Source: Prevotella melaninogenica
Lineage (GTDB): Bacteria; Bacteroidota; Bacteroidia; Bacteroidales; Bacteroidaceae
DNA: 64,000 bases
Direction: 5' to 3'
Assembly: GCF_018127925.1 (NCBI RefSeq)
Contig: NZ_CP072347.1
Span: 994,501 to 1,058,500, forward strand
In this document: positions 7,170 through 64,000 of the stretch, piece after piece
How positions within the stretch are numbered: position 1 is the stretch's first letter
Layout of the letters: each line of letters starts with the position of its first letter
Notes under the pieces: model-generated
What the model was told of the DNA's origin: nothing
Seen by the model: only the letters and a program-made list of their open reading frames with translations
The model's database searches: none
Made by a program: the position numbers and the translations under genes

Positions 7170-8475
7170 GGTTCTTCCGTTAAATGGATAGATATCTCTG
7201 ATTAGTTATATATAAAAAGCTGGTATTATGTATCTTTGTAGTGACCAAACTTCAAGAACATGAATACCAGCATAATGCAAAACGCCTTAGGCGTCTCCCA
7301 ACAAGATTGTCAGAATCTGCGCTACGAAGGTAATAACTTAGTTTTAGAAATCCAAACTCCAAAGGAAAAACTTTGTTGTCCTGTATGTGGAAGTCATAAT
7401 ATTAATCGTAACGGCAGTCATATTCGTCGCTTTGTAAGTGTTCCCATAGGTCTGAGCAAGACCTATCTGGACATGCGTGTACATCGTATTCAATGTCACG
7501 ACTGCGGCTGTATCAAACAAGAAAACATCGACTTTGCGAAAGGAAAACGTCGGCACACTATAGCTTTTGCAAATATGGTGTTTGACCTGTCTCGCTTTGC
7601 AACAATTCAAGATATATCATGGTTCCTACAGGTATCCTGGGATGTAGTACGTAATATACAGATGGAGTTTCTACAGTCAAATTACTCTAACCCAGACCTT
7701 TCCATGTTAAGGCGTATTTCCATTGATGAGTTTGCCACTCATAAGGGGCATGTATACAAGACCATAGTTGTAGATTTGGATAATGGTCATATTGTTTATG
7801 TCGGTGATGGTAATGGCAAGAATGCTCTTGATGGATTTTGGGAACGGCTCGGCAAAGACAAAGAGCATATACAAGCAGTATGTACAGACCTTTCTGCCGC
7901 ATATACACGAGCTGTAAGTGAGCATCTTCCCAATGCAGCACTTGTAGTAGACCACTTTCATGTAACCAAGCTTATGAACGAAAAGCTGGACTTGCTAAGG
8001 AGACAGTTATGGCATGAGGAAAAGGACATCAACAAGCGTAAAGTAATCAAAGGAACACGTTGGTTGTTACTCAGAAATGGAAATGATATCTTTGATCATG
8101 CACACAGAAATAGACTGGAGAACGCACTAAGCCTAAACCGTCCGCTAATGATTGCCTATTATCTCAAAGAAGATCTTAAGGAAATATGGAATCAGTGTAG
8201 TAAGCAAAAGGCTAAAGCTGTGTTGGATGAATGGGTAAAGCAAGCTATAGAATCCAAAATACAACCATTAATGAAAATGGCGTCAACTATTAGAGCATAC
8301 AAGACATACATATTAGCATGGTATGACCATTATATAACAAACGGAACAATAGAAGGAATTAACAACAAAATAAAAGTTTTGAAAAGACAGATATATGGGT
8401 TCAGAAATGAAGAATACTTCAAATTAAGACTATATGCACTGCATGATAGGAGTCTACGCATTTAACGGAAGAGCC
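7170..8475 (+). mobile_element. Intact ISL3-family insertion sequence, 1306 bp
   Basis: The element is bounded by imperfect inverted repeats of about 24 bp. The left end begins GGTTCTTCCGTTAAATG at 7170; the right end, read inward on the opposite strand from 8475, begins GGCTCTTCCGTTAAATG. About 20 of 24 positions match. Both ends are flanked by the same 8-bp sequence TAAAAACT, showing a simple insertion that has not been rearranged since. A single full-length transposase gene fills the element, and its stop codon (8463-8465) lies inside the right inverted repeat. The insertion is in an intergenic region, so no recognisable gene was broken. A copy with intact ends and an intact transposase is probably recent and may be mobile. 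Confidence 0.95.
7260..8465 (+). CDS. ISL3-family DDE transposase
   Basis: The 401-residue enzyme is complete. An N-terminal zinc-binding domain has Cys39/40 and Cys43, then Cys79, Cys82 and Cys84 (CCPVCG and CHDCGC). A helix-turn-helix follows (FATIQDISWFLQVSWDVVRN, about 113-132). The catalytic core supplies Asp156 (SIDEFATHKG), Asp210 (CTDLSAAY) and Glu365 (NGTIEGINNKIK), matching the DDE triad of the family; VVDHFHV (229-235) is a further signature. A -7 box TATCTTTG at 7231-7238 sits 22 bp before the ATG inside the element, so the element carries its own promoter. It binds the terminal repeats and performs cut-and-paste transposition. Confidence 0.95.
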   Translation: MNTSIMQNALGVSQQDCQNLRYEGNNLVLEIQTPKEKLCCPVCGSHNINRNGSHIRRFVSVPIGLSKTYLDMRVHRIQCHDCGCIKQENIDFAKGKRRHTIAFANMVFDLSRFATIQDISWFLQVSWDVVRNIQMEFLQSNYSNPDLSMLRRISIDEFATHKGHVYKTIVVDLDNGHIVYVGDGNGKNALDGFWERLGKDKEHIQAVCTDLSAAYTRAVSEHLPNAALVVDHFHVTKLMNEKLDLLRRQLWHEEKDINKRKVIKGTRWLLLRNGNDIFDHAHRNRLENALSLNRPLMIAYYLKEDLKEIWNQCSKQKAKAVLDEWVKQAIESKIQPLMKMASTIRAYKTYILAWYDHYITNGTIEGINNKIKVLKRQIYGFRNEEYFKLRLYALHDRSLRI

Positions 8476-24978: not shown

Positions 24979-25600
24979 AATTCTAACAAGTTGACATCAG
25001 GCTTTCATTCATCTATTTTTTCGGACGTCAAGCTACGTAGTGTTTGTAAACTATTTTCACGCAATTCAAAACCAAAACATGCCCTTTTAGCTTCTAAAAG
25101 ATGCCTAATTGGCTTGTAAAAGGTGCCCTATTGAGATCTTACTAACGCCCTTTTGAAGTCTAATTAAGCACCTTTTAAAACACATCTTTATAACCAGCTG
25201 ATTTACTGTTTGTTGTAGACTTTCTTTTTGGTAGCATTTTTATCATTACTTATATGTGTTTATTATATTTTTTTGTAAATATAATATCATCCCTTTATCT
25301 GTATTTTCGGGGTATAATAATGAATCGGTTTTTAGTATAGGAAGATATAGGGAAAAAAACTAATTAACAATATTGGCTATTTGTTTGTTTTATATCTAAT
25401 TTCCGTTTTTCTATTAAAGCAATACGAAAGGCGATTAGACAATAATCAGGAGAACCTTATTTTATCCCATTCTCTTTTTGCTTTTTTACCTTTTTAAACT
25501 CTTCTATTCCATTTTTTTTGTGTTACTTTGCAGGTAATTATATGAGTTTACTAACGTATTAATCCTACTTATTAAGGATATTTTCTCGAGAAAGTTGTTA
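24979..25600. other. Gene-free region before tamB with a family A repeat
   Basis: About 620 bp with no credible coding frame. It contains a reverse copy of repeat family A (25067-25220) and then about 300 bp of very AT-rich DNA. No clear promoter with both elements was found for tamB; TTACTTTG at 25523-25530 is a weak -7 candidate. Confidence 0.6.
25067..25220 (-). repeat. Dispersed 22-bp-period repeat, family A copy 1 (reverse)
   Basis: Read on the minus strand, five consecutive 22-bp units fill 25176 down to 25067. Units begin AAAAGGTGCTTA, AAAAGGGCGTTA, AATAGGGCACCT, AATTAGGCATCT and AAAAGGGCATG. A ~45-bp leader (25177-25220, with GGTTATAAAGATGTG) precedes them and resembles the leader of the other copies. 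A conserved tail (GTGAAAATAGTTTACA) follows below 25067. Confidence 0.85.
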
Positions 25601-28600
25601 ATGACTAACATTTTAAATATGAATAGGAGCTTGAAATGGCTGGTTGCAATTGTAGCAATACCTGTCATTCTGTTTCTTATCCTCGCAGCTTTACTATATT
25701 GTCCACCCGTTCAAAATTGGGCTGTAAAGCATGTGGCAGCCTATGTTTCAGACAAGACTGGAATGGAGGTAAGCATCGATAGGGTCAATCTATCTTTTCC
25801 TTTAGATCTTCAGTTAGATGGTCTAAAGATGCTTCGCCCGAATGATTCTATCCCTAATAAGAAAGATACGGTGGCAGATGTACATCGCTTGGTGGCTAAT
25901 GTAGACCTATTGCCATTGCTTAAAAGTAGGGTAGAAGTAAACGAACTAACCTTTACAAAACTCAAAGCAAATACCGTCAACTTTATTGGTGACCTGCGTA
26001 TTCGTGGTGATTTGCAACGCTTGCATATTGTTAGCCATGCAGTTAACCTTGTTGGTGATTCTGTTCGTGTAAATAAAGCAGATATAGAAGGGGGATGGGT
26101 TGATATTGCTTTGGGCGATACTGTACCCGAAGATCCAAACAAACAGAAGCCACTTTGGCGTATTAATATAGATAAACTTAATCTTACAAAAACAGATTTT
26201 CGCCTCCATATGCCTGGCGACACAATGAGTGTTCGTGCTAACTTCAAGAAAGCAGCAGCTAACGGAGCAGAACTTCTATTACATGACAACATATACAAGG
26301 TTGCAAACGTAGATTGGCAAGGCGGTGATTTTAGTTATAATCAAAACTATGTACGCCATGCAAAGACAGGTTTTGATGCAGCACATATAGCCATGCAAGA
26401 TGTTAATTTGGGTATAGATTCCTTCCTATATGCTGCTCCAAAGATTCGATTACGTGTTCGTACAGCTAATATGAAGGAAAAGAGTGGACTGATAGTAAAG
26501 GATTTCAGTGGACCATTTTCTATGGATTCTACAAGTATCAATCTACCTGATTTGTATTTCCGACTACCTAACACTGAGCTTTCTGGACGGTTTACGATGG
26601 ATATGAATGCCTTTGCTGATAAGAATCCAGGGCAGATATCTACTCAGTTAGATGGTTTTCTACGTCTGGAAGATTTGCACCCGTTCCTAACCTCCGTACC
26701 AAAGAATATTTATCAGGCTATTCCTAATCAAAGTATCATCATAAAGGGTCAACTGGATGGAAATCTTCGTTCAGCAGCTTTTAAACAGCTTCGTTTAGCT
26801 ATGCCAGGCTATTTTGACATTACAGGAACAGGATGGATAGCTGATATGATGTCTGGAGTTAGTCATCTTCGCAGCGACTTAAAACTTAAAGGAACAGCAA
26901 GTAATCTTAGTTTTGTTTCTAAATTATTACCACGTGATGTGCGCAAGACAATAGCTTTCCCACATGGAGTAGGTATAAATGGTGATATTCATGTGCGTAA
27001 AACACTGTACACAGGTAGCATACAGTTGACACAAGGTGGCGGACGTATTCGATTGAATGGTGCTTATAATACAGCAACAGAACTATATCGTATTACAGCA
27101 GATGCAACTTTATTCCCTGTTCATCGTTTCTTACCCCATATGGGTTTATCAGCTTTCTCCGGAACAATAAAGATGCAAGGACGAGGCACAGACTTCTTAA
27201 ATCCAAAATCATCAACCAATCTCAGCCTTCGTATTCGTAGTTTCAAATATGGTAACTACGTATTGGATGGCTTGAATGGAGACATTTCAAAACATGGAGA
27301 GCAACTTTCGGCTCATGTAAAGAGTACGAACCGAATGATAAGTGGCGACTTCACTTATAAAGGCAGAGTTAATACAAAACTTGTGGATGGTCATCTACGT
27401 GGTTGGTTACGTCGTGTTGACTTGCACGCCATGGGCGTAATGAATCAAAGATATGTAGTTTCTACATGGGCTGATGTTGATGTACGCTCTGATATGAAGA
27501 ACATTCATCATGTCAGTGGTCTACTTCGTTCGTTCCGCCTTCTGCAAGAAGGACGAAAGAAAAGTAGACTTTTAGCAGCTGGAAACTTTGATATGCGAGC
27601 TGATGTACGCCCAGGTAGCCTTGACACTCACATAAAAGGAAATCTATCAGAAGCTGATTTGCAGGCTTTTGGATTTATAGATAAGCATTATATAACATCT
27701 GCTAATACAGACATTACGCTTCGTTCAGATATGAAGAAGTACTATACTGTAAGTGGAAATGTGGGTAATTTATTACTAAGCGAACAACGTAAGGGAGAGC
27801 GTTTACCATTAGCTGAAGGTAATTTCAATCTTGATGCAACCATGCGTGGTGATCAAATTGAAGGTTCAATAAATGGTGTTTTCCCACGTGTAGACCTTTA
27901 CCAATTAGGAATTGTAGACAAAGCGATGACAAGTAGTTTCTCTACTAACACCTCATTTGCAATGTCTGGCAAAGATAATTTGAATGTTCGTGGTTTGATT
28001 GGCAATCTTCGTGTTACCGAAAAAGACCGTACTTATACTCCTGGTGATGTAAATGTTGACCTTATGAGTCGTCGTGATACAGTGCATGCAGTTCTGAATG
28101 GTGGAGACTTCCATCTCAGTACAGCTTTTAATAGTAGTGTCAACCAATTGGCAGAAAGTGGAAAGCGAATCTATAAGACTGTACGTGAGCAATTGACTAA
28201 TCGTCGTATAGATCAGTCTGCTATACTCCGTCAGTTACCAACAGGACACTTTACGCTCCGCAGTGGACGTGATAATTTATTCTCTAACTTGTTAGCACGA
28301 GATGGATATGCCTTTAGTCAGGCAGATATTAACCTGACATCATCACCAACAAAGGGACTCGATGGAAGAATTAGTATTGATTCTTTGGTATATAATGATA
28401 TTCTTCTCGACAGTATTAGGGCTGACCTTAACAGTATTGATGGACAGTTGAACTATACGCTATCTGTAATAAATAGCCCTAATAATACATATCCTTATCA
28501 TGGATCTTTGCAGGGTGCGCTCTATGAACATGGTTTGAAGACACATGCAACCATCCTTGATAATAAGGGTAAGACTGGTTTCGACTTAGCGATGAAGGCT

Positions 28601-30745
28601 GCTATGAAGGGTAGGGGAATAGAACTTTCTATTACTTCTCCTCAATCTATCTTAGGTTATAAGTCATTTACTGTCAATGATTCCAACTATATCTACATTG
28701 GACGTGACCGTCGTCTATCTGCCAATCTTCGTCTGGAAGCAGCTGACGGAACTGGTATGCTCGTATCAACAGAAGATAATGATTCTACTTCATTACAAAA
28801 TGTTACACTCTCAATGAACCACTTTGAGTTGGGTAGTTTGTTTGAAGTCTTACCATTTACGCCGAAGTTGTCGGGTATGCTGGACGGTGACTATCACCTT
28901 GTTCAGACTGAAAAGGAACTCACGATATCAAGCGATATGACTATTAAGAAGCTTGTTTATGAGAATAGTCCTATGGGAGATGTGGGCACACAGTTTGTTT
29001 ATATGCCTAAGGGAGATGGTACTCACTATGTTGATGGTATAATAACACAAAACGGAAAGGAAGTCGGTTCACTTTCGGGTACCTATAATAATGAGGGGGC
29101 TGGAGAACTTGATGCTACTTTAGAGATGAATCGTTTCCCACTGAATTACGTCAATGGCTTTGTTCCTGACCAAATTGTAGGCCTCGATGGAGTAGGAGAA
29201 GGAACGTTAACAGTAAAAGGGCCGCTGAAGAAGTTGGATATCAATGGTGAAGTTTATCTTGATTCAACTTATTTGGTGAGTGCACCTTACGGCATAAGGA
29301 TGCGCTTTGCAGATGATCCTGTCCAAATACACAATAGCCATATTCAGTTTGAAAACTTCGAACTCTTTGCAAGTAATGGTTCACCACTCGACATATCGGG
29401 CTACTTAGATTTCTCTAATCTTAATAAGATGCAGCTTGATGCGCAAATGAGAGCTAAGGACTTCCAGATTATTGATGCGAAGAAAAATCCTCGTTCAGAA
29501 GTTTATGGAAAGGCTTTCGTTGACTTTACAGGACGAATAAACGGCCTTTTAAACAACTTACAGTTAGTTGGAAAGCTTGATGTCTTAGGTAATACAGATG
29601 TCACATACGTAGTACGCGATGGTACATTATCTACTGATGACGATTTGAAAGACCTCGTTCAGTTCACTAACTTCAATGATTCTACGGTTAATGTTGTCAA
29701 ACGTCCAGATATTACTGGCTTTACAATGGGGCTTAGTGTAAATATTGATGAGCAGGCACATGTATTATGTGCGTTGAATGCTGACCAGTCTAATTATGTC
29801 GATTTTGTAGGTGGTGGCAATCTACTTCTTAACTATGACCCAACCAATGGTGTGCAGGTTCGAGGTAGATATACGTTGAGTGATGGTAAGATGAAATACT
29901 CTCTGCCAGTTATTCCACTCCGCACTTTCAACATTAAAGACGGAAGTTATCTTGAATTTACGGGTGATCCTATGAAGCCTACACTTAAAATTACAGCAAC
30001 AGAAGTAGTAAGAACAAGTGTTTCCAGTGGTTCTGGGGAAGGTAGAATCATTGATTTTGAATGTGGTGTAAGCCTTAGCAAGCAATTCCCTAAACCTGGA
30101 GTTGAGTTTATCATCACCGCCCCAGAGGATCAAGAGATGCAGAATATTCTTAATATCAAGAGTGTTGAGGAACGTTCAAAACTTGCAGTTATGATGTTGG
30201 CATCGGGTATGTATTTTGATGGCAATAACTCAGCAAGCGCCAATACAGCCATGAATGGTGCATTAGCAGGCTTCCTACAGACACAGGTTAACTCTATTAC
30301 GGGTAAAGCCCTTAACTCTATGGGACTTGACTTGACTGCCAATATGGAAAGTGCTGCCGATGTGAATGGCAACTTACACACCGACTATACCTTCAAGTTC
30401 TCAAAACGTCTGTGGAATAATCGCCTACGTATCATTATGGGTGGACGAGTTTCAACAGGTTCACAGTTCTCTGAAGATAATGGTGCTTACTTCGATAACT
30501 TCTCGCTTGAATATCGTCTAAACCAAAAAGAAACCAAGTATTTGAAACTCTACTATGAGCGTGAGGCATACGATTGGTTAGAAGGTAACTTGAGTGAGTT
30601 TGGTGCTGGCTTCATGTGGCGTCGTAAGTTACGTCATTTCAAGGATATCTTCCGCTCTAAAGAAGATAATCCAGTAGTAGCACCACAGACTGAGAAGCCT
30701 AAACGAGATACATTAATAAACTTTGTAAATGACAAAAAGAAATAA
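25601..30745 (+). CDS. tamB: TamB-like translocation and assembly module protein
   Basis: This very large protein (about 1714 residues) has one N-terminal membrane helix (LVAIVAIPVILFLILAALLY). A long run of repetitive beta-strands follows, and the C-terminus carries the conserved DUF490/TamB domain (GGNLLLNYDPTNGVQVRGRY, then FKFSKRLWNNRLRIIMGGRV). TamB spans the periplasm as a beta-taco and works with a BamA-like partner in outer-membrane assembly or lipid transport. That partner, tamL, overlaps its 3' end by 17 bases. ATG at 25601 is taken here; ATG at 25619 (MNRSLKWLV), right before the membrane helix, is an equally good start. Confidence 0.93.
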   Translation: MTNILNMNRSLKWLVAIVAIPVILFLILAALLYCPPVQNWAVKHVAAYVSDKTGMEVSIDRVNLSFPLDLQLDGLKMLRPNDSIPNKKDTVADVHRLVANVDLLPLLKSRVEVNELTFTKLKANTVNFIGDLRIRGDLQRLHIVSHAVNLVGDSVRVNKADIEGGWVDIALGDTVPEDPNKQKPLWRINIDKLNLTKTDFRLHMPGDTMSVRANFKKAAANGAELLLHDNIYKVANVDWQGGDFSYNQNYVRHAKTGFDAAHIAMQDVNLGIDSFLYAAPKIRLRVRTANMKEKSGLIVKDFSGPFSMDSTSINLPDLYFRLPNTELSGRFTMDMNAFADKNPGQISTQLDGFLRLEDLHPFLTSVPKNIYQAIPNQSIIIKGQLDGNLRSAAFKQLRLAMPGYFDITGTGWIADMMSGVSHLRSDLKLKGTASNLSFVSKLLPRDVRKTIAFPHGVGINGDIHVRKTLYTGSIQLTQGGGRIRLNGAYNTATELYRITADATLFPVHRFLPHMGLSAFSGTIKMQGRGTDFLNPKSSTNLSLRIRSFKYGNYVLDGLNGDISKHGEQLSAHVKSTNRMISGDFTYKGRVNTKLVDGHLRGWLRRVDLHAMGVMNQRYVVSTWADVDVRSDMKNIHHVSGLLRSFRLLQEGRKKSRLLAAGNFDMRADVRPGSLDTHIKGNLSEADLQAFGFIDKHYITSANTDITLRSDMKKYYTVSGNVGNLLLSEQRKGERLPLAEGNFNLDATMRGDQIEGSINGVFPRVDLYQLGIVDKAMTSSFSTNTSFAMSGKDNLNVRGLIGNLRVTEKDRTYTPGDVNVDLMSRRDTVHAVLNGGDFHLSTAFNSSVNQLAESGKRIYKTVREQLTNRRIDQSAILRQLPTGHFTLRSGRDNLFSNLLARDGYAFSQADINLTSSPTKGLDGRISIDSLVYNDILLDSIRADLNSIDGQLNYTLSVINSPNNTYPYHGSLQGALYEHGLKTHATILDNKGKTGFDLAMKAAMKGRGIELSITSPQSILGYKSFTVNDSNYIYIGRDRRLSANLRLEAADGTGMLVSTEDNDSTSLQNVTLSMNHFELGSLFEVLPFTPKLSGMLDGDYHLVQTEKELTISSDMTIKKLVYENSPMGDVGTQFVYMPKGDGTHYVDGIITQNGKEVGSLSGTYNNEGAGELDATLEMNRFPLNYVNGFVPDQIVGLDGVGEGTLTVKGPLKKLDINGEVYLDSTYLVSAPYGIRMRFADDPVQIHNSHIQFENFELFASNGSPLDISGYLDFSNLNKMQLDAQMRAKDFQIIDAKKNPRSEVYGKAFVDFTGRINGLLNNLQLVGKLDVLGNTDVTYVVRDGTLSTDDDLKDLVQFTNFNDSTVNVVKRPDITGFTMGLSVNIDEQAHVLCALNADQSNYVDFVGGGNLLLNYDPTNGVQVRGRYTLSDGKMKYSLPVIPLRTFNIKDGSYLEFTGDPMKPTLKITATEVVRTSVSSGSGEGRIIDFECGVSLSKQFPKPGVEFIITAPEDQEMQNILNIKSVEERSKLAVMMLASGMYFDGNNSASANTAMNGALAGFLQTQVNSITGKALNSMGLDLTANMESAADVNGNLHTDYTFKFSKRLWNNRLRIIMGGRVSTGSQFSEDNGAYFDNFSLEYRLNQKETKYLKLYYEREAYDWLEGNLSEFGAGFMWRRKLRHFKDIFRSKEDNPVVAPQTEKPKRDTLINFVNDKKK

Positions 30746-33152
30746 ATATATAAGAACAACAGGTGGAAAAGGAGTCATAGAACTATTTGCTTTTATGGCA
30801 TTCTTATTCATACTTGTTGCCTGTAGTACGACTTCTGCCATCCCTAATGGTGAATACTTATATACAGGTATGGAGCCGACAAAATACAGTAATTACAAAG
30901 AAAATCAACACTTCAATGATGTGAAAGAAGAGTTGGATCTTGTGTTAGCAACTAAGCCTAATGCCGCTTGGTTGGGTAGCCCCAGTATGCGTTCTCCTTT
31001 CCCTATCGGGTTATGGATATGGAATGCTTTCTCACAAGATACAACTGGACTCAGTCGTTGGTTAGTACGTGCATTTGGCTCTTCACCGGTATTAATGAGT
31101 TCAACAACACCTGATTTGCGCGTAACGGTTGGTGAAAATCTCTTACGTAAACGTGGTTATTTCAAAGGAAAGATAAGCTATGAGAAGCTTGCACAGAGTA
31201 ATCCAAAGAAGATGCGACTACAGTATGCTGTTGATATGGGACGTCTGTGGTTGCTCGATAGCGTACAATACACCAACTTTCCACCTTCAGCAGATAGTTT
31301 GATAAGAACCAATCTTGATAAAGCAATTATCCGCAAGGGAGATGGTTTTGATGTAGCAACACTTGAACAAGAACGCAAGCGAATAACTGATTTGTTCCGT
31401 AATAATGGTTATTATTATTATCAGAATAACGATGCGAGTTATCTTGCTGACACAACGAAGGCTTATGGCTTAGCTTCTATTCGTCTGCAGATGGCGGATT
31501 CAGTAAGTGATAAAGCATTGAGAAAATGGACAATAGGAACCATTAACATCAACCTACAGCGTCAGATGATAGATTCTCTTACTCAGCACAAGCGCTTCCG
31601 TGATGTCATTGTGAATTACAATGGTTCGCACATGCCACTCCGTCTACGCGCCATAGCTAATGATTTAAAGATATGGCCGGGTACTGTGTATAATAACGAA
31701 CTATTTGAAAAAAGCCAGCAGCAATTGAATAGTAGTGGACTATTCTCTGCTACGAACTTTACATTCACTCCACGTGATAGTACTGATTCATGTAATATTT
31801 TAGATATGGTCATTAATTGTATCTTTGATAAGCCTTATGACTTCTATATTGAGGCTTACGGAAAAGGGAAAACAAGTGGCAGATATGGTCCAGAGGCTAT
31901 TATTGGTCTGACAAAACGTAATGTATTCCGTGGTGGTGAAAAACTTAACCTACGCGTACATGGCTCTTATGAATGGTCTGCAAGCACTGATGATAATGGC
32001 AATGACCGTCTTGGATTGAATAACTACGAGTATGGTGCTGAAGCCAGTTTACAGTTTCCTCGCCTTGTCAATCCATTCGTTACACCGCCACGAAAGCGTT
32101 GGGAACGTGAAGAAAGGAAGACTGCAGAAGCTGCAGAAAAGGGACTTGTATATATTCCTAAGGGACCACGCATCTATTTTACAACACCATCAACGACCCT
32201 TAAAGCTTCTGTTGATGTGTTGAACCGTTCTCAGTATTTCAAGCGTCATGTTGTGTCAGGCGAGTTAACATACCAGTGGCAGCCAAACGAGCGTAATAGC
32301 TATTCGTTCTCTCCTTTGACACTGACTTATGAGTATATGCATAACGTGACCGACCGTTATCTTGAATTGATAGATAGTGTTCCTTATCTTGAGGTATCAT
32401 TGGCAGACCAGTTCATTCCAAAGATGATGTTCCAACATACGTTTATGAGCCCAGCACGTTATAAGAGTCCAATTAAAATATGGACAACGGTTAGTGAAGC
32501 TTCAAACATCTTGTCTGCAGGTTACGCTGCCTTTGGTAGACGTTGGAGCGAAAAAGACAAGAAACTCTTTAAGAATCCATTTGCACAATTTGTGAAGATT
32601 GATGCTAATCTTACAAAAGTATGGAGTCTTGGAGAGAAGAGTGGTATTGCAGCCCACGTCAATTTAGGAACGTTATGGGCGTATGGCAACAGTAGATTTG
32701 CACCTTATACAGAACAGTTTTATGTAGGTGGAGCCAATAGCATCCGTGCGTTTAATGCCCGCCAGATTGGTCCAGGACGCTATCGCTCAACACAGCGTCG
32801 ACGCTCATACGTAGAACAGACAGGTGATATCAAAATACAGCTCAACCTTGAGTATCGTCCTCACCTTATGGGCTCCCTCTATGGTGCCGTTTTCCTCGAT
32901 GCTGGTAATGTATGGACAATGCACTATGATGAGGGTCGACCAGAAGGACATTTCAAGTTTAAGAATATATTAAATGAAATGGCACTCGGTACTGGAGTTG
33001 GTTTACGCTATGATATTGGCTATTTCATGATTCGTCTTGATTGGGGACTTGGCTTACACGTACCTTATGAAACTGGCAAGACTGGTTTCTATAACATATC
33101 AAAATTTAAGGATGCACAAGCCTTCCACTTAGCGATTGGTTTGCCATTCTAA
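30729..33152 (+). CDS. tamL: TamL-like BamA-family outer-membrane lipoprotein
   Basis: The 807-residue protein has a lipoprotein signal (ILVACSTTSA, lipobox Cys near residue 32) followed by POTRA-type domains (about 100-330). A C-terminal 16-strand-type BamA barrel carries YVGGANSIRAFNARQIGPG and ends in AIGLPF with terminal Phe. The strand-6 loop motif, VRGF/Y in BamA, is IRAF here. A lipid-anchored BamA homologue next to tamB matches TamL of Bacteroidota. The 17-base overlap with tamB argues for coupled synthesis. A second, shorter homologue lies at 57822-60086 without a tamB. Confidence 0.93.
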   Translation: MTKRNKYIRTTGGKGVIELFAFMAFLFILVACSTTSAIPNGEYLYTGMEPTKYSNYKENQHFNDVKEELDLVLATKPNAAWLGSPSMRSPFPIGLWIWNAFSQDTTGLSRWLVRAFGSSPVLMSSTTPDLRVTVGENLLRKRGYFKGKISYEKLAQSNPKKMRLQYAVDMGRLWLLDSVQYTNFPPSADSLIRTNLDKAIIRKGDGFDVATLEQERKRITDLFRNNGYYYYQNNDASYLADTTKAYGLASIRLQMADSVSDKALRKWTIGTININLQRQMIDSLTQHKRFRDVIVNYNGSHMPLRLRAIANDLKIWPGTVYNNELFEKSQQQLNSSGLFSATNFTFTPRDSTDSCNILDMVINCIFDKPYDFYIEAYGKGKTSGRYGPEAIIGLTKRNVFRGGEKLNLRVHGSYEWSASTDDNGNDRLGLNNYEYGAEASLQFPRLVNPFVTPPRKRWEREERKTAEAAEKGLVYIPKGPRIYFTTPSTTLKASVDVLNRSQYFKRHVVSGELTYQWQPNERNSYSFSPLTLTYEYMHNVTDRYLELIDSVPYLEVSLADQFIPKMMFQHTFMSPARYKSPIKIWTTVSEASNILSAGYAAFGRRWSEKDKKLFKNPFAQFVKIDANLTKVWSLGEKSGIAAHVNLGTLWAYGNSRFAPYTEQFYVGGANSIRAFNARQIGPGRYRSTQRRRSYVEQTGDIKIQLNLEYRPHLMGSLYGAVFLDAGNVWTMHYDEGRPEGHFKFKNILNEMALGTGVGLRYDIGYFMIRLDWGLGLHVPYETGKTGFYNISKFKDAQAFHLAIGLPF

Positions 33153-33360: not shown

Positions 33361-33517
33361 ATATTCTTTAATATCAAACACATTGAATATTACCGTTTCA
33401 AAGAAAGCTGTAGAGAGTCAGAAAAGTACTTTTAAACGACTATGAGCAAACAAAAAGACTTTACAAAAATAATCAAAGTAGAGAATGTTTTTTAATCAAA
33501 AAACACTTCTTTCTTAT

Positions 33518-33674
33518 GCGTTTGTAACTTACAGCAATACAGATAAGTTATAAACTTGTATTTTAAAAGGTGCTTAGTAAGGGCTCAAAAGGGCGTTAGT
33601 TAGCATTCAAAAGGGCATCTATTGAAAGGCAATTAGGCATCTTTTAGAAGCTAAAAGAGTATGTATTAGAATTA
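33518..33674 (+). repeat. Dispersed 22-bp-period repeat, family A copy 2
   Basis: A 47-bp leader (33518-33564, with GTTATAAACTTGTATTTT) is followed by five 22-bp units starting at 33565, 33587, 33609, 33631 and 33653 (AAAAGGTGCTTA, AAAAGGGCGTTA, AAAAGGGCATCT, AATTAGGCATCT, AAAAGAGTATGT). A tail TGGAAAATAT follows. Confidence 0.88.
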
Positions 33675-33726
33675 CAACTATGGAAAATATCAGACAAATA
33701 GTAAGATGGAAACAAACTTTTATACA

Positions 33727-49656: not shown

Positions 49657-50057
49657 ATATCTATCATAGGAATTAAGACCTAAAAAGATTCCACTGTGGT
49701 AACTTTATATAAGGTATTTAGCACTCGCACCATTCGTGTTTACCATTCGCACCACAGGTGTTTACCAACAACACGACGTGTGCTTAGTAACAACTTTATA
49801 CCTATGAGTGATATTTTCATTCTAAAATCATCACGAGAAGATTTAGAAAATAGTTTACATAAAATTCTAATATAACACCTTACGACGATAAGAAAACAAC
49901 GTTTTAAATCGCCTTTGTAACTAAAAGCATATCAAACGATTACAAACTTGTACAAGAAAAGGTGCTTAATAGGAGTCTTAAAGGGCGTTAGTAAGGCTTC
50001 AATTAACGCCCTTTTACACCTCAATTAAGCCTTAATTCAAATCGAAGTAAGCCTTAA
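49657..50057. other. Convergent gene-free region with family A and B repeats
   Basis: About 400 bp with one family B copy (49724-49789) and one family A copy (49910-50066) and no credible gene. Confidence 0.65.
49724..49789 (+). repeat. Dispersed 22-bp-period repeat, family B copy 3
   Basis: Three units start at 49724, 49746 and 49768; the first two read CTCGCACCATTCGTG and TTCGCACCACAGGTG, each followed by TTTACCA. The third is degenerate. Confidence 0.8.
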
Positions 50058-50066
50058 TTATTTTTC
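49910..50066 (+). repeat. Dispersed 22-bp-period repeat, family A copy 3
   Basis: A 47-bp leader (CTTTGTAAC to CAAACTTGTACAAG) precedes five 22-bp units starting at 49957, 49979, 50001, 50023 and 50045. Units 2 and 3 form an inverted pair (AAAGGGCGTTA and TAACGCCCTTT). The last unit and the tail overlap the 3' end of the minus-strand lipoprotein gene. Confidence 0.85.
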
Positions 50067-50504
50067 AATCTTATAATTTTCTTTACAAAACCGTAGATTA
50101 CTTTTCCAGTAATTTATATCATCTTCCTTCATAGACATCCTCCAATCTTCAATGTCTCTATGATATAATAAAACTATTGCATCACGATTGTAAAGGGAAT
50201 ATAACAAGGCATTAGCTGCATAATCAGTTGCCGAATTCTGCAAAAGTTGCATCCATTGTTCTTTCTTAATAGTTCTTATAAGGCTATCCTCATCGGCGGA
50301 TAACTTTACACGTACACGATAACCAATATCGTGAATAGGAAAACAGGAATCGCAAGCCACCTTCAAGATATCAAAATGAATATCTCGGTTATTAATAAAG
50401 CTAATATCAGTTCTATGCTTCTTCACTTCAATAGGCTTTCTAAGAGTACAAGAAAATACCATCAAAGATAAGATAGTTAATAGACCTAATTTACTCGTAA
50501 CCAC
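50058..50504 (-). CDS. Putative lipoprotein of unknown function (GTG start)
   Basis: The start is set at GTG 50504, giving 148 residues beginning MVTSKLGLLTILSLMVFSC, a good lipoprotein signal with Cys19. The frame is open further upstream, but that part overlaps the preceding gene and places the hydrophobic stretch too far inside. From GTG the overlap with the upstream gene is 14 bases. The mature part has a Cys pair (ACDSCFP) and no family I recognise. Its last codons (KIEK and stop) lie inside a family A repeat, so the C-terminus may have been shaped by that element. Confidence 0.65.
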   Translation of the reverse strand: MVTSKLGLLTILSLMVFSCTLRKPIEVKKHRTDISFINNRDIHFDILKVACDSCFPIHDIGYRVRVKLSADEDSLIRTIKKEQWMQLLQNSATDYAANALLYSLYNRDAIVLLYHRDIEDWRMSMKEDDINYWKSNLRFCKENYKIEK

Positions 50505-61015: not shown

Positions 61016-61213
61016 AGATTCTTTTTTTACTAAACATACAAGCATTGTATTTACCTATAAATCAATAAGTTTTGAATCTATAAGTAATATCAACCCTTTA
61101 ATTCAATAGCATTTTTTAACTATTTAATTGTGTAATTATTACAAAATACTTGTAACTTTGCAAGCGATATAATTCAAATTAAATTTATTTTTAACATTAT
61201 AAACAGAAGCATT

Positions 61214-61378
61214 ATGAAGAAGTACGAATGCGAGACATGTGGTTATATTTATGACCCAGAACTTGGTGATCCAGATAGTGGCATTGAGCCAGGTACAGCA
61301 TTTGAGGATATTCCAGATGATTGGGTTTGCCCTCTTTGCGGTGTAGGTAAGGATGATTTCACTCCAGTTGAAGAGTAA
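61214..61378 (+). CDS. Rubredoxin
   Basis: A 54-residue protein, [20 protein letters not shown] at the N-terminus and [13 protein letters not shown] near the C-terminus. The two CxxCG pairs (Cys6/9 and Cys39/42) bind one iron. Rubredoxins pass single electrons, in anaerobes often to superoxide reductase or peroxidase systems. A -7 box TAACTTTG at 61153-61160 precedes it, and a rho-independent terminator follows at 61401. Confidence 0.95.
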
Positions 61379-61400
61379 TCAATTTACAACTATAGAATTA

Positions 61401-61435
61401 AAGCCTGCTCATTTTAATGAGTGGGCTTTTTTTTT
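61401..61435 (+). terminator. Rho-independent terminator of rubredoxin
   Basis: AAGCCTGCTCATT (61401-61413) pairs with AATGAGTGGGCTT (61416-61428) except for two positions, followed by a run of T. Confidence 0.9.
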
Positions 61436-61662
61436 GGTATGCTACAAGTAGTTATCTTACCAAAGTTTCCTATTTGCTGTATTATTCCATTCTATACTTA
61501 TCATACCAAGCAGATATACCAGAAAACATTAATAGGAATAGGCCTTTTCATCTATCGAAAACACTCTTTTATTCAAAGAATAATCATATATACGCTTTGA
61601 AAAATATTGACATAAATTCTTATGCTTCGCAGCTAAAAATCATAAGAAAAGTCCCTTTTTTT

Positions 61663-61819
61663 GCGTGTTTATAACCTCCTGTTAATCAGAATGTTGAAAA
61701 CCTCTGCAAAAAAGGTGCTTAGTTGGGCTTCAAAAGGGCGTTACTTTGACATCAAAAGGGCATCTTTTCAAAGCCAATTAAGCCTTAATTCAAGTCCTAA
61801 TGAGCATCAATAGACATTT
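61663..61819 (+). repeat. Dispersed 22-bp-period repeat, family A copy 4
   Basis: A 47-bp leader (61663-61709) precedes units starting at 61710, 61732, 61754, 61776 and 61798 (AAAAGGTGCTTA, AAAAGGGCGTTA, AAAAGGGCATCT, AATTAAGCCTTA, TAATGAGCATCA). The tail GTGAAAAATATTTACA follows. The spacing equals copies 2 and 3 exactly. Confidence 0.88.
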
Positions 61820-61978
61820 GAGCTGTGAAAAATATTTACATATAAGGTCGTTTACTGTCTTCTGCTGTATCTCGTTTTGCTGTTGTCATATTATGTAAGG
61901 TCAATCAGGAAATCCAATTTTTGGAGATAAATAAAAGGAGAAAAAGATCTATTATTTCAGAGAGAAAAAGGTATAGTA

Positions 61979-62012
61979 TTTGTTAATTAATCAAGAAAAA
62001 AGGTTATCTTTG
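61979..62012 (+). promoter_or_regulatory. Promoter candidate for the secreted unknown
   Basis: TTTG (61979-61982) and TATCTTTG (62005-62012) with a 22-bp spacer, slightly longer than usual. The start is 38 bp downstream. Confidence 0.55.
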
Positions 62013-62050
62013 CAAACAAATCATCTTAATATTTAATTTTAATAAACAAT

Positions 62051-63532
62051 ATGAAGAAAACAGTATTAGGCTTCATCGCCAGCTTCATGGTGCTTTCCGC
62101 ACATGCCCAGGATATGAAAATAAAGAAGGGAACGGTATTACTTAATGAAACACCAGTAGCGCTTCTAAAAGAAGAGAAAAGAACGTGCGAATTGTCTACA
62201 CTTGATGGGAAGCAAGTTCTTACGTTTTTCATTACCAATAAGACGAAACAAGGCATCAGCGCGCCAGAAGAGTGGCTTAAGTTTATATCGCCTGAGGGTG
62301 CAGTCTTTGAATTACCTAATCCGCAAGATAGGATAGTTCTGTCCAATACGAAGTTTTTTGCCTACAAACTATTAGATAGCAAGCCCAATCTCCTCGCAGT
62401 GAACGGCATCAAGAAATCTATCATTGATAACCTCTTCGCACAGGGTTCATGCCCTTTCTCTGCAAAATGGGACAGCATCTATACCGTTGTTAAAAAGATG
62501 GAGAAAGCCGATGAAGAATTTACAGCACAGCATCCTTTCTTCATCAATGACGATGGCGACATTATCATCAACAAGGTGATGGTGGGTAAGGTTCTTGTCA
62601 ATGAACCATCATTGGGCAAAAGAAACTATTATATTAAGGACCGCGTGGGCAACCAAGTTGCCGAGATTAAACTGGAATCGTGGACTAACAGCGAGAATTT
62701 CAGCAATATAACAACCTGTGATGATAGGAAACTTCCTTTCTTAGAATACAAGACGGCATTTAAACTCTCTGAGAACGAGATGGCACATCGTATGGTGTCT
62801 AAACTACTTGCAAACGGCTATACATTGGGAGATATGACGGAGGACGTTAAGCAGCGACTGGCTAACAAGGCTAAGGCAGAGGAACAACAGGCTGTTGAGA
62901 AAGAACAACAGTTGGTGAACGATGCTAAAAAAGCTTCCGTGAACATCTATAATATGCCTGGCAAGGTGGTACTTGCTGATGGCACGACACACGAGGGAAA
63001 CATCACCATCATCTATGAATCTATTGAAAAGAAGATGGGTAAAGGCACTAATGGAATTCTCGATCTTGATGCTCCGGCAATGGGTTCTTCTGTAACACTA
63101 ACACACAATGATGCAAACGGCAATACTGAACAGAGGTTCAAGGCTGCTGACAACGTAACCGTCTATGCTGGTGGTAAGACCTATATCGGTACAAAGGGTT
63201 TAAAAGACAGTGCGTTAAGAAATGCTGGTGGTAGCAGTTCTATCAATATCGGAACACGTCATCCGCAGTTCTTCGAGGTTCTCTTTACCGATGGAAAAGG
63301 CAATTATATTCTGCAACATCCATTAGATAAAGACGAACTTTATTTGAAGTTGAAGGACAAAAATGGAGCTATCTATCTTGGCGATAAAGCCTTATTAGGT
63401 ACACGAAGTGAGAAGACAAGAATAAAACTGACGGCTGAATATCTGGATACCCCAAGTATGGATGCCGCTAAGTATGACACTCGTACGAAAGAAGGACTGC
63501 AACAACTTATTGCAGATTATGCAAAAAAATAG
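62051..63532 (+). CDS. Secreted protein of unknown function
   Basis: The 493-residue protein has a signal peptide (MKKTVLGFIASFMVLSAHAQ, cleavage after HAQ). An N-terminal half contains a repeated strand pattern (MKIKKGTVLLNETPVALLK and later INKVMVGKVLVNEP). A basic coiled segment rich in Lys/Gln/Glu lies near 270-298 (KAKAEEQQAVEKEQQLVNDA). A C-terminal half holds GKVVLADGTTHEGNITI and VYAGGKTYIGTKGL. I do not recognise the family. It is preceded by a promoter candidate and followed by a hairpin, so it is probably a single-gene unit. Confidence 0.8.
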   Translation: MKKTVLGFIASFMVLSAHAQDMKIKKGTVLLNETPVALLKEEKRTCELSTLDGKQVLTFFITNKTKQGISAPEEWLKFISPEGAVFELPNPQDRIVLSNTKFFAYKLLDSKPNLLAVNGIKKSIIDNLFAQGSCPFSAKWDSIYTVVKKMEKADEEFTAQHPFFINDDGDIIINKVMVGKVLVNEPSLGKRNYYIKDRVGNQVAEIKLESWTNSENFSNITTCDDRKLPFLEYKTAFKLSENEMAHRMVSKLLANGYTLGDMTEDVKQRLANKAKAEEQQAVEKEQQLVNDAKKASVNIYNMPGKVVLADGTTHEGNITIIYESIEKKMGKGTNGILDLDAPAMGSSVTLTHNDANGNTEQRFKAADNVTVYAGGKTYIGTKGLKDSALRNAGGSSSINIGTRHPQFFEVLFTDGKGNYILQHPLDKDELYLKLKDKNGAIYLGDKALLGTRSEKTRIKLTAEYLDTPSMDAAKYDTRTKEGLQQLIADYAKK

Positions 63533-63544
63533 AAGATAATCGTT

Positions 63545-63574
63545 CTCTAATCCCTTCGAGAGGAGGGATTAGAG
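63545..63574 (+). terminator. Hairpin terminator after the secreted unknown
   Basis: CTCTAATCCCT (63545-63555) pairs perfectly with AGGGATTAGAG (63564-63574) around an 8-base loop. The following T content is modest. Confidence 0.75.
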
Positions 63575-63764
63575 CGAGATACTTGTTGTTTTAGATAATT
63601 GGTTTGTGTTGTAATCTCAACTTTTTTATTCTACAGGCATGAAATCAAATAATTTTATGTAAGTTTGCAAAGTATAAAAATCAATACTTGGCAAATAAGC
63701 TGTATGCTTCTTCTGCCTTGCTCATATAGTTTATTCATTGTTTAAAAATAAAATGATTTGATTA

Positions 63765-64000
63765 ATGATTGACGTCAAAGTAAAAGATAGCGATATACGC
63801 AAAGCCGTTGAAGAAGGAATGGACAGTTTTGTTCAGGTCTTTGTTGATGCCATTGGCAATGCAATAGATAATAAGTTGACATTGGAAGCTATGCAGCAAC
63901 TAAATGCTGATCAGATAACACTATTGGCATGGAGTTATCTTCATCAAGAAGTGATGGATGGCGGTTATGTCCAATTGATATACAATGGTTATGGTGCTTT
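63765..64000 (+). CDS. DMP19-family (DUF4375) protein, 3' partial
   Basis: Seventy-eight codons are visible from ATG at 63765 (MIDVKVKDSDIRKAVEEGMD) to the right end of the window. The segment LLAWSYLHQEVMDGGYVQLI and the following YNGYGAF match the DMP19/DUF4375 fold, whose founding member is a DNA mimic protein; most bacterial members are uncharacterised. A -7 box TAAGTTTG lies at 63660-63667. An ATG at 63753 is closed at once by a stop, so 63765 is the start. Confidence 0.8.
   Translation, partial: MIDVKVKDSDIRKAVEEGMDSFVQVFVDAIGNAIDNKLTLEAMQQLNADQITLLAWSYLHQEVMDGGYVQLIYNGYGA

Follow-up and report, generated by a model that had tools for sequence, protein, structure and literature searches.

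The window analysed here, a stretch of 64,000 nucleotides from Prevotella melaninogenica, contains four copies of a short non-coding DNA element that hardly varies in length and in which five near-palindromes follow each other at intervals of two helical turns. Copy 1 lies on the reverse strand (25045–25288 including both end motifs, with units 1 to 5 running from 25176 to 25067), and copies 2 (33451–33696), 3 (49846–50087, units from 49957) and 4 (61599–61840, units from 61710) lie on the forward strand; strand assignment leans on the match to a leader sequence. Copies 1 and 2 flank a tamB-tamA pair (TamB-like and Omp85-like genes, 25595–33152), and an insertion sequence of the ISL3 family occupies 7170–8475 on the forward strand, with a transposase ORF at 7260–8465 and 17-bp ends reading GGTTCTTCCGTTAAATG and CATTTAACGGAAGAGCC.

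The build of the element can be read from copy 2. Between its end motifs (about 33451–33465 and 33682–33696) lie a leader dyad (33521–33554), formed by TTTGTAAC (33521–33528) and GTTATAAA (33547–33554), and five 22-bp units (33565–33674) starting at 33565, 33587, 33609, 33631 and 33653. Copy 3 shows reverse-complementary segments in units 2 and 3 (AAAGGGCGTTA and TAACGCCCTTT), and copy 4 carries its end motifs, GAAAAATATTGACA (61599–61612) and GAAAAATATTTACA (61827–61840), as a direct repeat 228 bp apart. The original prediction had located all four copies correctly (R1 scores 94–139 bits), but its element of 157 bp was too short, since the distance between the two end-motif copies brings it to about 240 bp (for example 61599–61840). 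Copies 2 to 4, thought to be of exactly equal length, agree within 2 bp; the leader has one extra base in copy 2 and one base fewer in copy 4.

From 97 distinct P. melaninogenica copies, four of them those of the window, we derived a consensus layout of about 240 bp for a full copy: an end motif reading GAAWWWTNWTTACA, free sequence of about 50 bp, the leader dyad (TTTGTAAC-N17-GTTACAAA), five 22-bp units and, after a short tail, a second end motif in the same direction. The leader dyad mostly starts 42–43 bp ahead of unit 1 (44 bp in window copy 2). For comparisons by age, we separated older from younger copies by a cut on HMM bits, set at 200 for the analyses of length, register and MITE ends and at 215 for the analysis of gene context. 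Of 55 older P. melaninogenica copies, 48 have their 5′ end 97–98 bp ahead of unit 1, and 43 of the 44 in which both ends were found measure 227–231 bp from end to end (the remaining one 246). P. histicola elements are 223–225 bp long in all 20 cases measured among 22 arrays. The strict 22-bp register is kept in 94 of the 97 P. melaninogenica copies and in 22/22 P. histicola arrays; the corresponding 20/20 for P. jejuni is not independent, as these arrays were themselves found by an in-register scan. Copy length is held to 1–2 bp while spacers and linkers diverge. Outside the ends of older copies, inspection by eye revealed no common sequence. At one locus (L145, around 2034 and 2584) two arrays share a single intergenic region, the second seemingly one unit short. 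At several others, an IS-like insertion ending in CTGTGTTTTGATAAAAGTACTAACAAACC sits in the end motif (3′ in L021, L141 and L156; 5′, at the same place, in L009 and L049), as if the motif were its target.

The strict 22-bp period noted in the original prediction held up in a five-unit scan of the window, which relies on hand-made letter classes, as do all our unit scans: among steps of 16 to 30 bp, only 22 reached a score of at least 52 out of 60, solely at the four copies, and the best five-unit score in 100 first-order Markov versions of the window was 48. The four copies are, however, far from being the only ones. The P. melaninogenica genome (3.36 Mb, two contigs) holds at least 150, on both strands. 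Among the matches listed, the weakest has an E-value of 3.4e-24, 74 lie on one contig and 76 on the other, and their spacing is near-random along both (CV 0.87 and 0.98), with strands mixed and no even spacing or strand bias along the chromosomes. The selection on spacing that had been proposed from four copies is supported by the register (94/97 and 22/22) and by end motifs at nearly fixed distances, and the genome scan found neither a mere handful of copies nor random unit numbers. We regard the element as real, abundant and strongly constrained. An origin from phages or plasmids was rejected, as the region 33440–33710 of the window had no match in either the phage or the plasmid collection.

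Some copies travel in a larger carrier. Around 12 of the 97 P. melaninogenica copies, the 17-bp sequence GGTTCTTCCGTTAAATG forms inverted ends about 500–780 bp apart; allowing up to four edits, these 12 have such ends on both sides, 29 on one side and 56 on neither, where the one-sided cases may include chance matches, given four edits in 17 bases. The ends are those of the ISL3 insertion sequence at 7170–8475, with one mismatch on the right, which makes this insertion sequence the probable autonomous partner of the carrier MITE; the shared 17-bp ends imply that many young copies hitch-hike in an ISL3-type MITE. An 8-bp target duplication was seen by eye in two carrier cases. Copy 1 of the window sits within a longer degenerate carrier repeat (about 25040–25475) with numerous matches in both P. 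jejuni and P. multiformis, so that it arrived inside this repeat.

Tandem units with a leader and a tail, together with young copies in a MITE with 17-bp inverted ends and two 8-bp target duplications, are also what a neutral minisatellite or a dead MITE similar to BrickBuilt would present. We consider this explanation very improbable: it is contradicted by the nearly fixed number of units and length, by the greater resistance of units than of linkers to change, and by the lack of any MITE end in 46 of the 55 older P. melaninogenica copies. The element itself was likewise rejected as a MITE, its ends being direct repeats in P. melaninogenica and P. histicola and paired target copies not being apparent by eye.

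Each unit opens with a near-palindrome of 15 bp, in which a 7-bp core is bordered on either side by four A/T-rich bases, and closes with a 7-bp linker. In P. histicola the units come close to perfection: they read AAAAGGGC[AT/GT/AC]CTTTT or a related form, and their order varies. In each of the four species sets, the units are more conserved than the linkers, for example with a mean information of 1.68 versus 1.21 bits in P. histicola and 1.65 versus 1.45 bits in G114, a genome to which we return below. For the analyses of conservation and dialects, covariation and inverted neighbours, one of 23 P. histicola and eight of 55 older P. melaninogenica arrays were left out, and for the latter two also nine of 20 P. 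jejuni arrays.

The wording of the units differs between species in a symmetric manner. Position 2 is A in 226 of 235 P. melaninogenica units (47 arrays) and in all 110 P. histicola units (22 arrays), and G in 84 of 100 P. jejuni units (the 20 arrays kept, taken in scan orientation). Position 14 mirrors this, with T in 227/235 and 109/110 units of the former two species and C in 76/100 of the latter; the dialect differences thus fall on symmetric positions of both half-sites. One P. veroralis array reads AAGA..TCTT (L195, score 49, by eye), and distant members of the genus differ in the core (AAAAGGTCATCTTTT in G010, AAAAGGGCTGCTTTT in G012). The AGAA/TTCT and AAGA/TCTT dialects break the A-tracts, for which reason we set aside, on sequence grounds, intrinsic curvature by phased A-tracts.

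The P. jejuni arrays come from a 399-kb sample picked for synteny and long contigs, in which 25 places scored at least 50 in the five-unit scan. We kept the 20 in the local dialect and dropped two AT-rich places as well as three of the AAAA..TTTT carrier type, the presence of which means that two dialects coexist in this species. Units do not seem to occur alone: all nine matches to the strict 15-mer consensus in the 64-kb window fall within the four arrays, and none of the 35 matches in the 399 kb of P. jejuni was isolated by the criterion of our script.

Both flanks of eight of the 97 P. melaninogenica copies are colinear in the P. jejuni sample. Two of these eight are carrier-type copies and are absent from P. 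jejuni, one leaving a clean empty site. Among the six resident copies, three (window copies 2 and 4, and L155) have an array in the same direction at the P. jejuni site, copy 4 being the weaker case of orthology because gene order differs on its right-hand side; the other three (L010, L148, L156) have no array there, which shows that single sites are dispensable. L155 and its P. jejuni counterpart (C38:148893) align unit by unit, with differences at 21 of 35 linker bases and 22 of 75 unit bases. At position 2 the difference is A/G in every one of the five units, and at position 14 it is T/C in three. The same difference in all five sites of one orthologous locus, and in most of a species' set, is the pattern expected of a trans-acting partner.

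Several Prevotella species have arrays next to the tamB-tamA pair, be it on one side or on both. Of four other species, three have an array beside tamB (that of P. veroralis judged by eye, score 49) and three have one beside tamA, where the P. multiformis array is of its carrier-like type. The orientation of these flanking arrays differs in P. histicola, and copy 1 of P. melaninogenica is itself a carrier copy. The other flanks have arrays in 0/4 species (left of copy 1), 1/3 (folA side) and 1/4 (left of copy 3, carrier-like). Gene order relative to other species breaks at or beside window copies 1, 2 and 3: copies 1 and 3 are broken against P. jejuni, and copy 2 is colinear in P. jejuni and broken in P. 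histicola, P. multiformis and P. veroralis. These breaks agree with the rearrangements linked to PINSR, a repeat of P. intermedia, in the available part of its description (PMC4755523). The block around copy 4 (about 61115–64000) is 93% identical to P. veroralis, compared to 71–78% in the other aligned blocks, a difference in sequence identity from which we gather that it may be a recent transfer.

Searches of other genomes with R1, scoring 150 candidates in each, gave at least 150 matches in P. histicola, 138 in P. jejuni, 122 in P. multiformis, 16 in P. veroralis, four in P. corporis and two in Hoylesella timonensis, counts in which a place matched on both strands may appear twice. With R2, a general model for which only 14 candidates were scored per genome, matches came from 91 of 200 genomes in the genus, P. 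melaninogenica among them (48 of the 86 good ones), and none from the other 109. In the rest of the order, five of 246 other genomes matched, weakly, with 11 candidates scored per genome. By eye, 22-bp arrays (AACAGAGCCTCTGTT plus 7 bp, for instance) are present at the loci of one of these, G264 (same family, different genus), and arrays of about 21 bp at the loci of G334 and G400; the loci of G374 and G441 look like chance. At L329, L335 and L339 (G264), L336 (G334), and L331 and L337 (G400), near-palindromic units of about 21–22 bp have a different wording and are often more numerous. The arrays in other genera of Bacteroidales possibly represent a wider class.

None of the 97 P. melaninogenica copies lies inside an ORF of at least 90 aa (greedy ORF call), and the intergenic placement occurs in either orientation. 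Gaps between convergent genes host 34 of the 97, compared to nine of 114 background gaps from the same loci, also based on greedy ORF calls (3/30 for gaps of at least 200 bp). Between tandem genes, orientation shows no clear bias (25 versus 20). The enrichment in convergent gaps is what one would expect of a structured RNA or bidirectional terminator array, in which hairpins of A-tract, GC-core and T-tract stop transcripts from both sides, or which gives rise to a small RNA; at the same time, 18 of the 97 copies lie between divergent genes, which speaks against it. Units 1–4 can indeed fold as an 84-nt hairpin (mean z −4.4 versus single-base shuffles, 43 copies), and RNAalifold, run on 31 copies, gives 22 predicted pairs; many variants retain the pair as G-U, yet changes on both sides that preserve the pair occur in only one of the 22. 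The forward strand is the more stable one in 66 of 97 copies, but since the forward-over-reverse difference of −7.6 kcal/mol compares to −5.3 for dinucleotide shuffles (z −3.2 versus −2.7), this asymmetry is mostly a matter of composition.

Covariation is weak as well. Watson-Crick combinations account for 0/45 of the top covarying columns in P. melaninogenica (background 7%) and 2/45 in P. jejuni (9%); only in P. histicola, with 8/45 (18%), do they exceed the background (11%). Unit cores can be complementary within one array, and inverted neighbouring units, which speak for an RNA or terminator array, are over-represented for units 4 and 5 of P. melaninogenica (11/47 versus 4.2 expected, p 0.0005); for units 1 and 2 of P. 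histicola (14/22 versus 8.7, p 0.0045) the excess is not significant after 30 pair tests, and units 2–5 of this species mostly run in one direction. Rfam had no match, neither for the whole window at the gathering threshold nor for copy 2 at E-values up to 1. Taken together, we judge a function as structured RNA or terminator to be quite unlikely.

Alternatively, the array could be a non-autonomous mobile element in its own right, its end motifs serving as recombinase or transposase sites, its dyads binding that enzyme and its dialects following the specificity of the enzyme. The sites of TnsB and MuA offer a precedent for 22-bp internal sites bound by a transposition enzyme. Such an element would account for the defined ends of older copies, beyond which the sequences are unrelated (by eye), for the at least 150 copies with near-random spacing on both contigs, for the polymorphic presence between species and for score levels and wording that are species-specific. 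It fits less well with the lack of a target duplication, the two ends of one copy being, by eye, no more alike than those of different copies, or with ends that are direct repeats in P. melaninogenica and P. histicola and inverted in G114. Further, a search of nine array-bearing genomes for the Y1 transposase (PF01797, E ≤1e-5) had no match in eight (G000, G060, G061, G062, G064, G114, G012, G003), which include P. melaninogenica, P. histicola, P. jejuni, P. multiformis and P. veroralis, and two in the ninth, G010. We consider a mobile element of this kind unlikely, if slightly less so than an RNA.

The reading we favour, if at somewhat less than an even chance, is that the element offers a platform, of almost constant length, to a specific DNA-binding protein, probably a dimer, that would co-evolve with it and act on one face of the helix. 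Dimeric binding fits best with the two-turn spacing, the dyads, the symmetric dialects and the fact that, at one locus, the five units all differ in the same way. The putative protein would bind each 15-mer as a dimer and cooperatively along one helix face, the dialects would reflect its co-evolution with the sites, and the complex would serve chromosome structure or transcript boundaries. New copies arise in part by hitch-hiking in the ISL3-type MITE. The original prediction had offered two functions, protein binding every two helical turns and an RNA fold; the dialects, the dyads and the lack of isolated units lend better support to the former, support for the latter being weak. Against the platform count the over-represented inverted neighbours and complementary cores, which a pure binding-site model does not predict, as well as the three of six resident copies without an array at the P. 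jejuni site, the 109 of 200 genomes of the genus that were unmatched with few candidates scored, and the coexistence of two dialects in P. jejuni. Taken further, Prevotella might possess a chromosome-wide system made up of about 200 phased arrays of five sites per genome and of a rapidly evolving DNA-binding protein, which rewrites the wording of the half-sites between species, for organisation of the nucleoid or isolation of transcription units; this we see as conceivable but doubtful. Since the pattern is the one expected of a trans-acting partner, synthetic arrays offer a direct way to look for it.

Comparison with known systems places the element in a family that is partly known. Plasmid iterons and the end sites of Tn7 and Mu are phased protein sites of about 22 bp; they belong to a single origin or to transposon ends, whereas here at least 150 intergenic loci are involved. 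REPIN/RAYT populations comprise many intergenic palindromic copies with a genome-specific consensus. The element resembles them, to the extent that the available parts of their descriptions cover (PMC3116915, PMC8049555), in its many intergenic palindromic copies and differs in its five-unit lattice and fixed length; as PF01797 is absent from eight of the nine array-bearing genomes tested, we rejected a REPIN/RAYT system. BrickBuilt, a MITE of Porphyromonas gingivalis, is described in the accessible part of its report (PMC4596501) as having 19 copies, each with 1 to 22.8 units of 23 nt, and inverted ends of the IS5 type. It shares the leader, the tandem short units without spacers, the tail and the strictly intergenic location, but here the units are of 22 bp and five in number, and the element itself lacks inverted ends.

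The closest known system, and very probably a relative, is PINSR, contrary to the original prediction, which knew of no named element of this kind. In the available part of the paper by Naito et al. (PMC4755523), published in 2015, PINSR is a 188-bp intergenic repeat with 177 and 184 copies in two strains of a two-chromosome Prevotella, probably non-coding, without inverted ends and of unknown function; about three quarters of its sites are common to the two strains, some rearrangements occurred between copies, and it is reported solely from the P. intermedia group, by PCR. G114 (2.7 Mb, two contigs) fits this description: after removal of five double-strand matches, the 150 matches listed correspond to at least about 145 places, and among 30 loci that we read, 27 have both ends, 26 of them at 189 bp and one at 190 (three lack a recognised end). 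These 189-bp elements have five 22-bp units in yet another wording and, other than stated for PINSR in that part of the paper, inverted outer motifs. We infer that G114 is a member of the P. intermedia group, with PINSR as one dialect of a wider family, comparing descriptions rather than consensus sequences.

By the same comparison of descriptions, the element of the window is very probably a relative of PINSR within this family, not PINSR itself. Both are intergenic and abundant, with about 180 copies on one side and at least 150, none of 97 inside an ORF, on the other; the window copies differ in their length of about 240 bp and in the wording of their units. Among the literature matches listed, only PMC4755523 uses the name PINSR for Prevotella, and its available part makes no mention of 22-bp units, dyads, a rule of fixed length or dialects; our literature search found no description of the architecture, units or dialects of the family. 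The grammar that this anatomy gives to PINSR-like repeats is an end, a leader dyad, five dyads at two turns and an end. In contrast to the claimed confinement of PINSR to the P. intermedia/nigrescens group, the family of the window is found in P. jejuni, P. histicola, P. multiformis and P. veroralis, which suggests that a repeat seemingly specific to one lineage may be one dialect of a genus-wide family.
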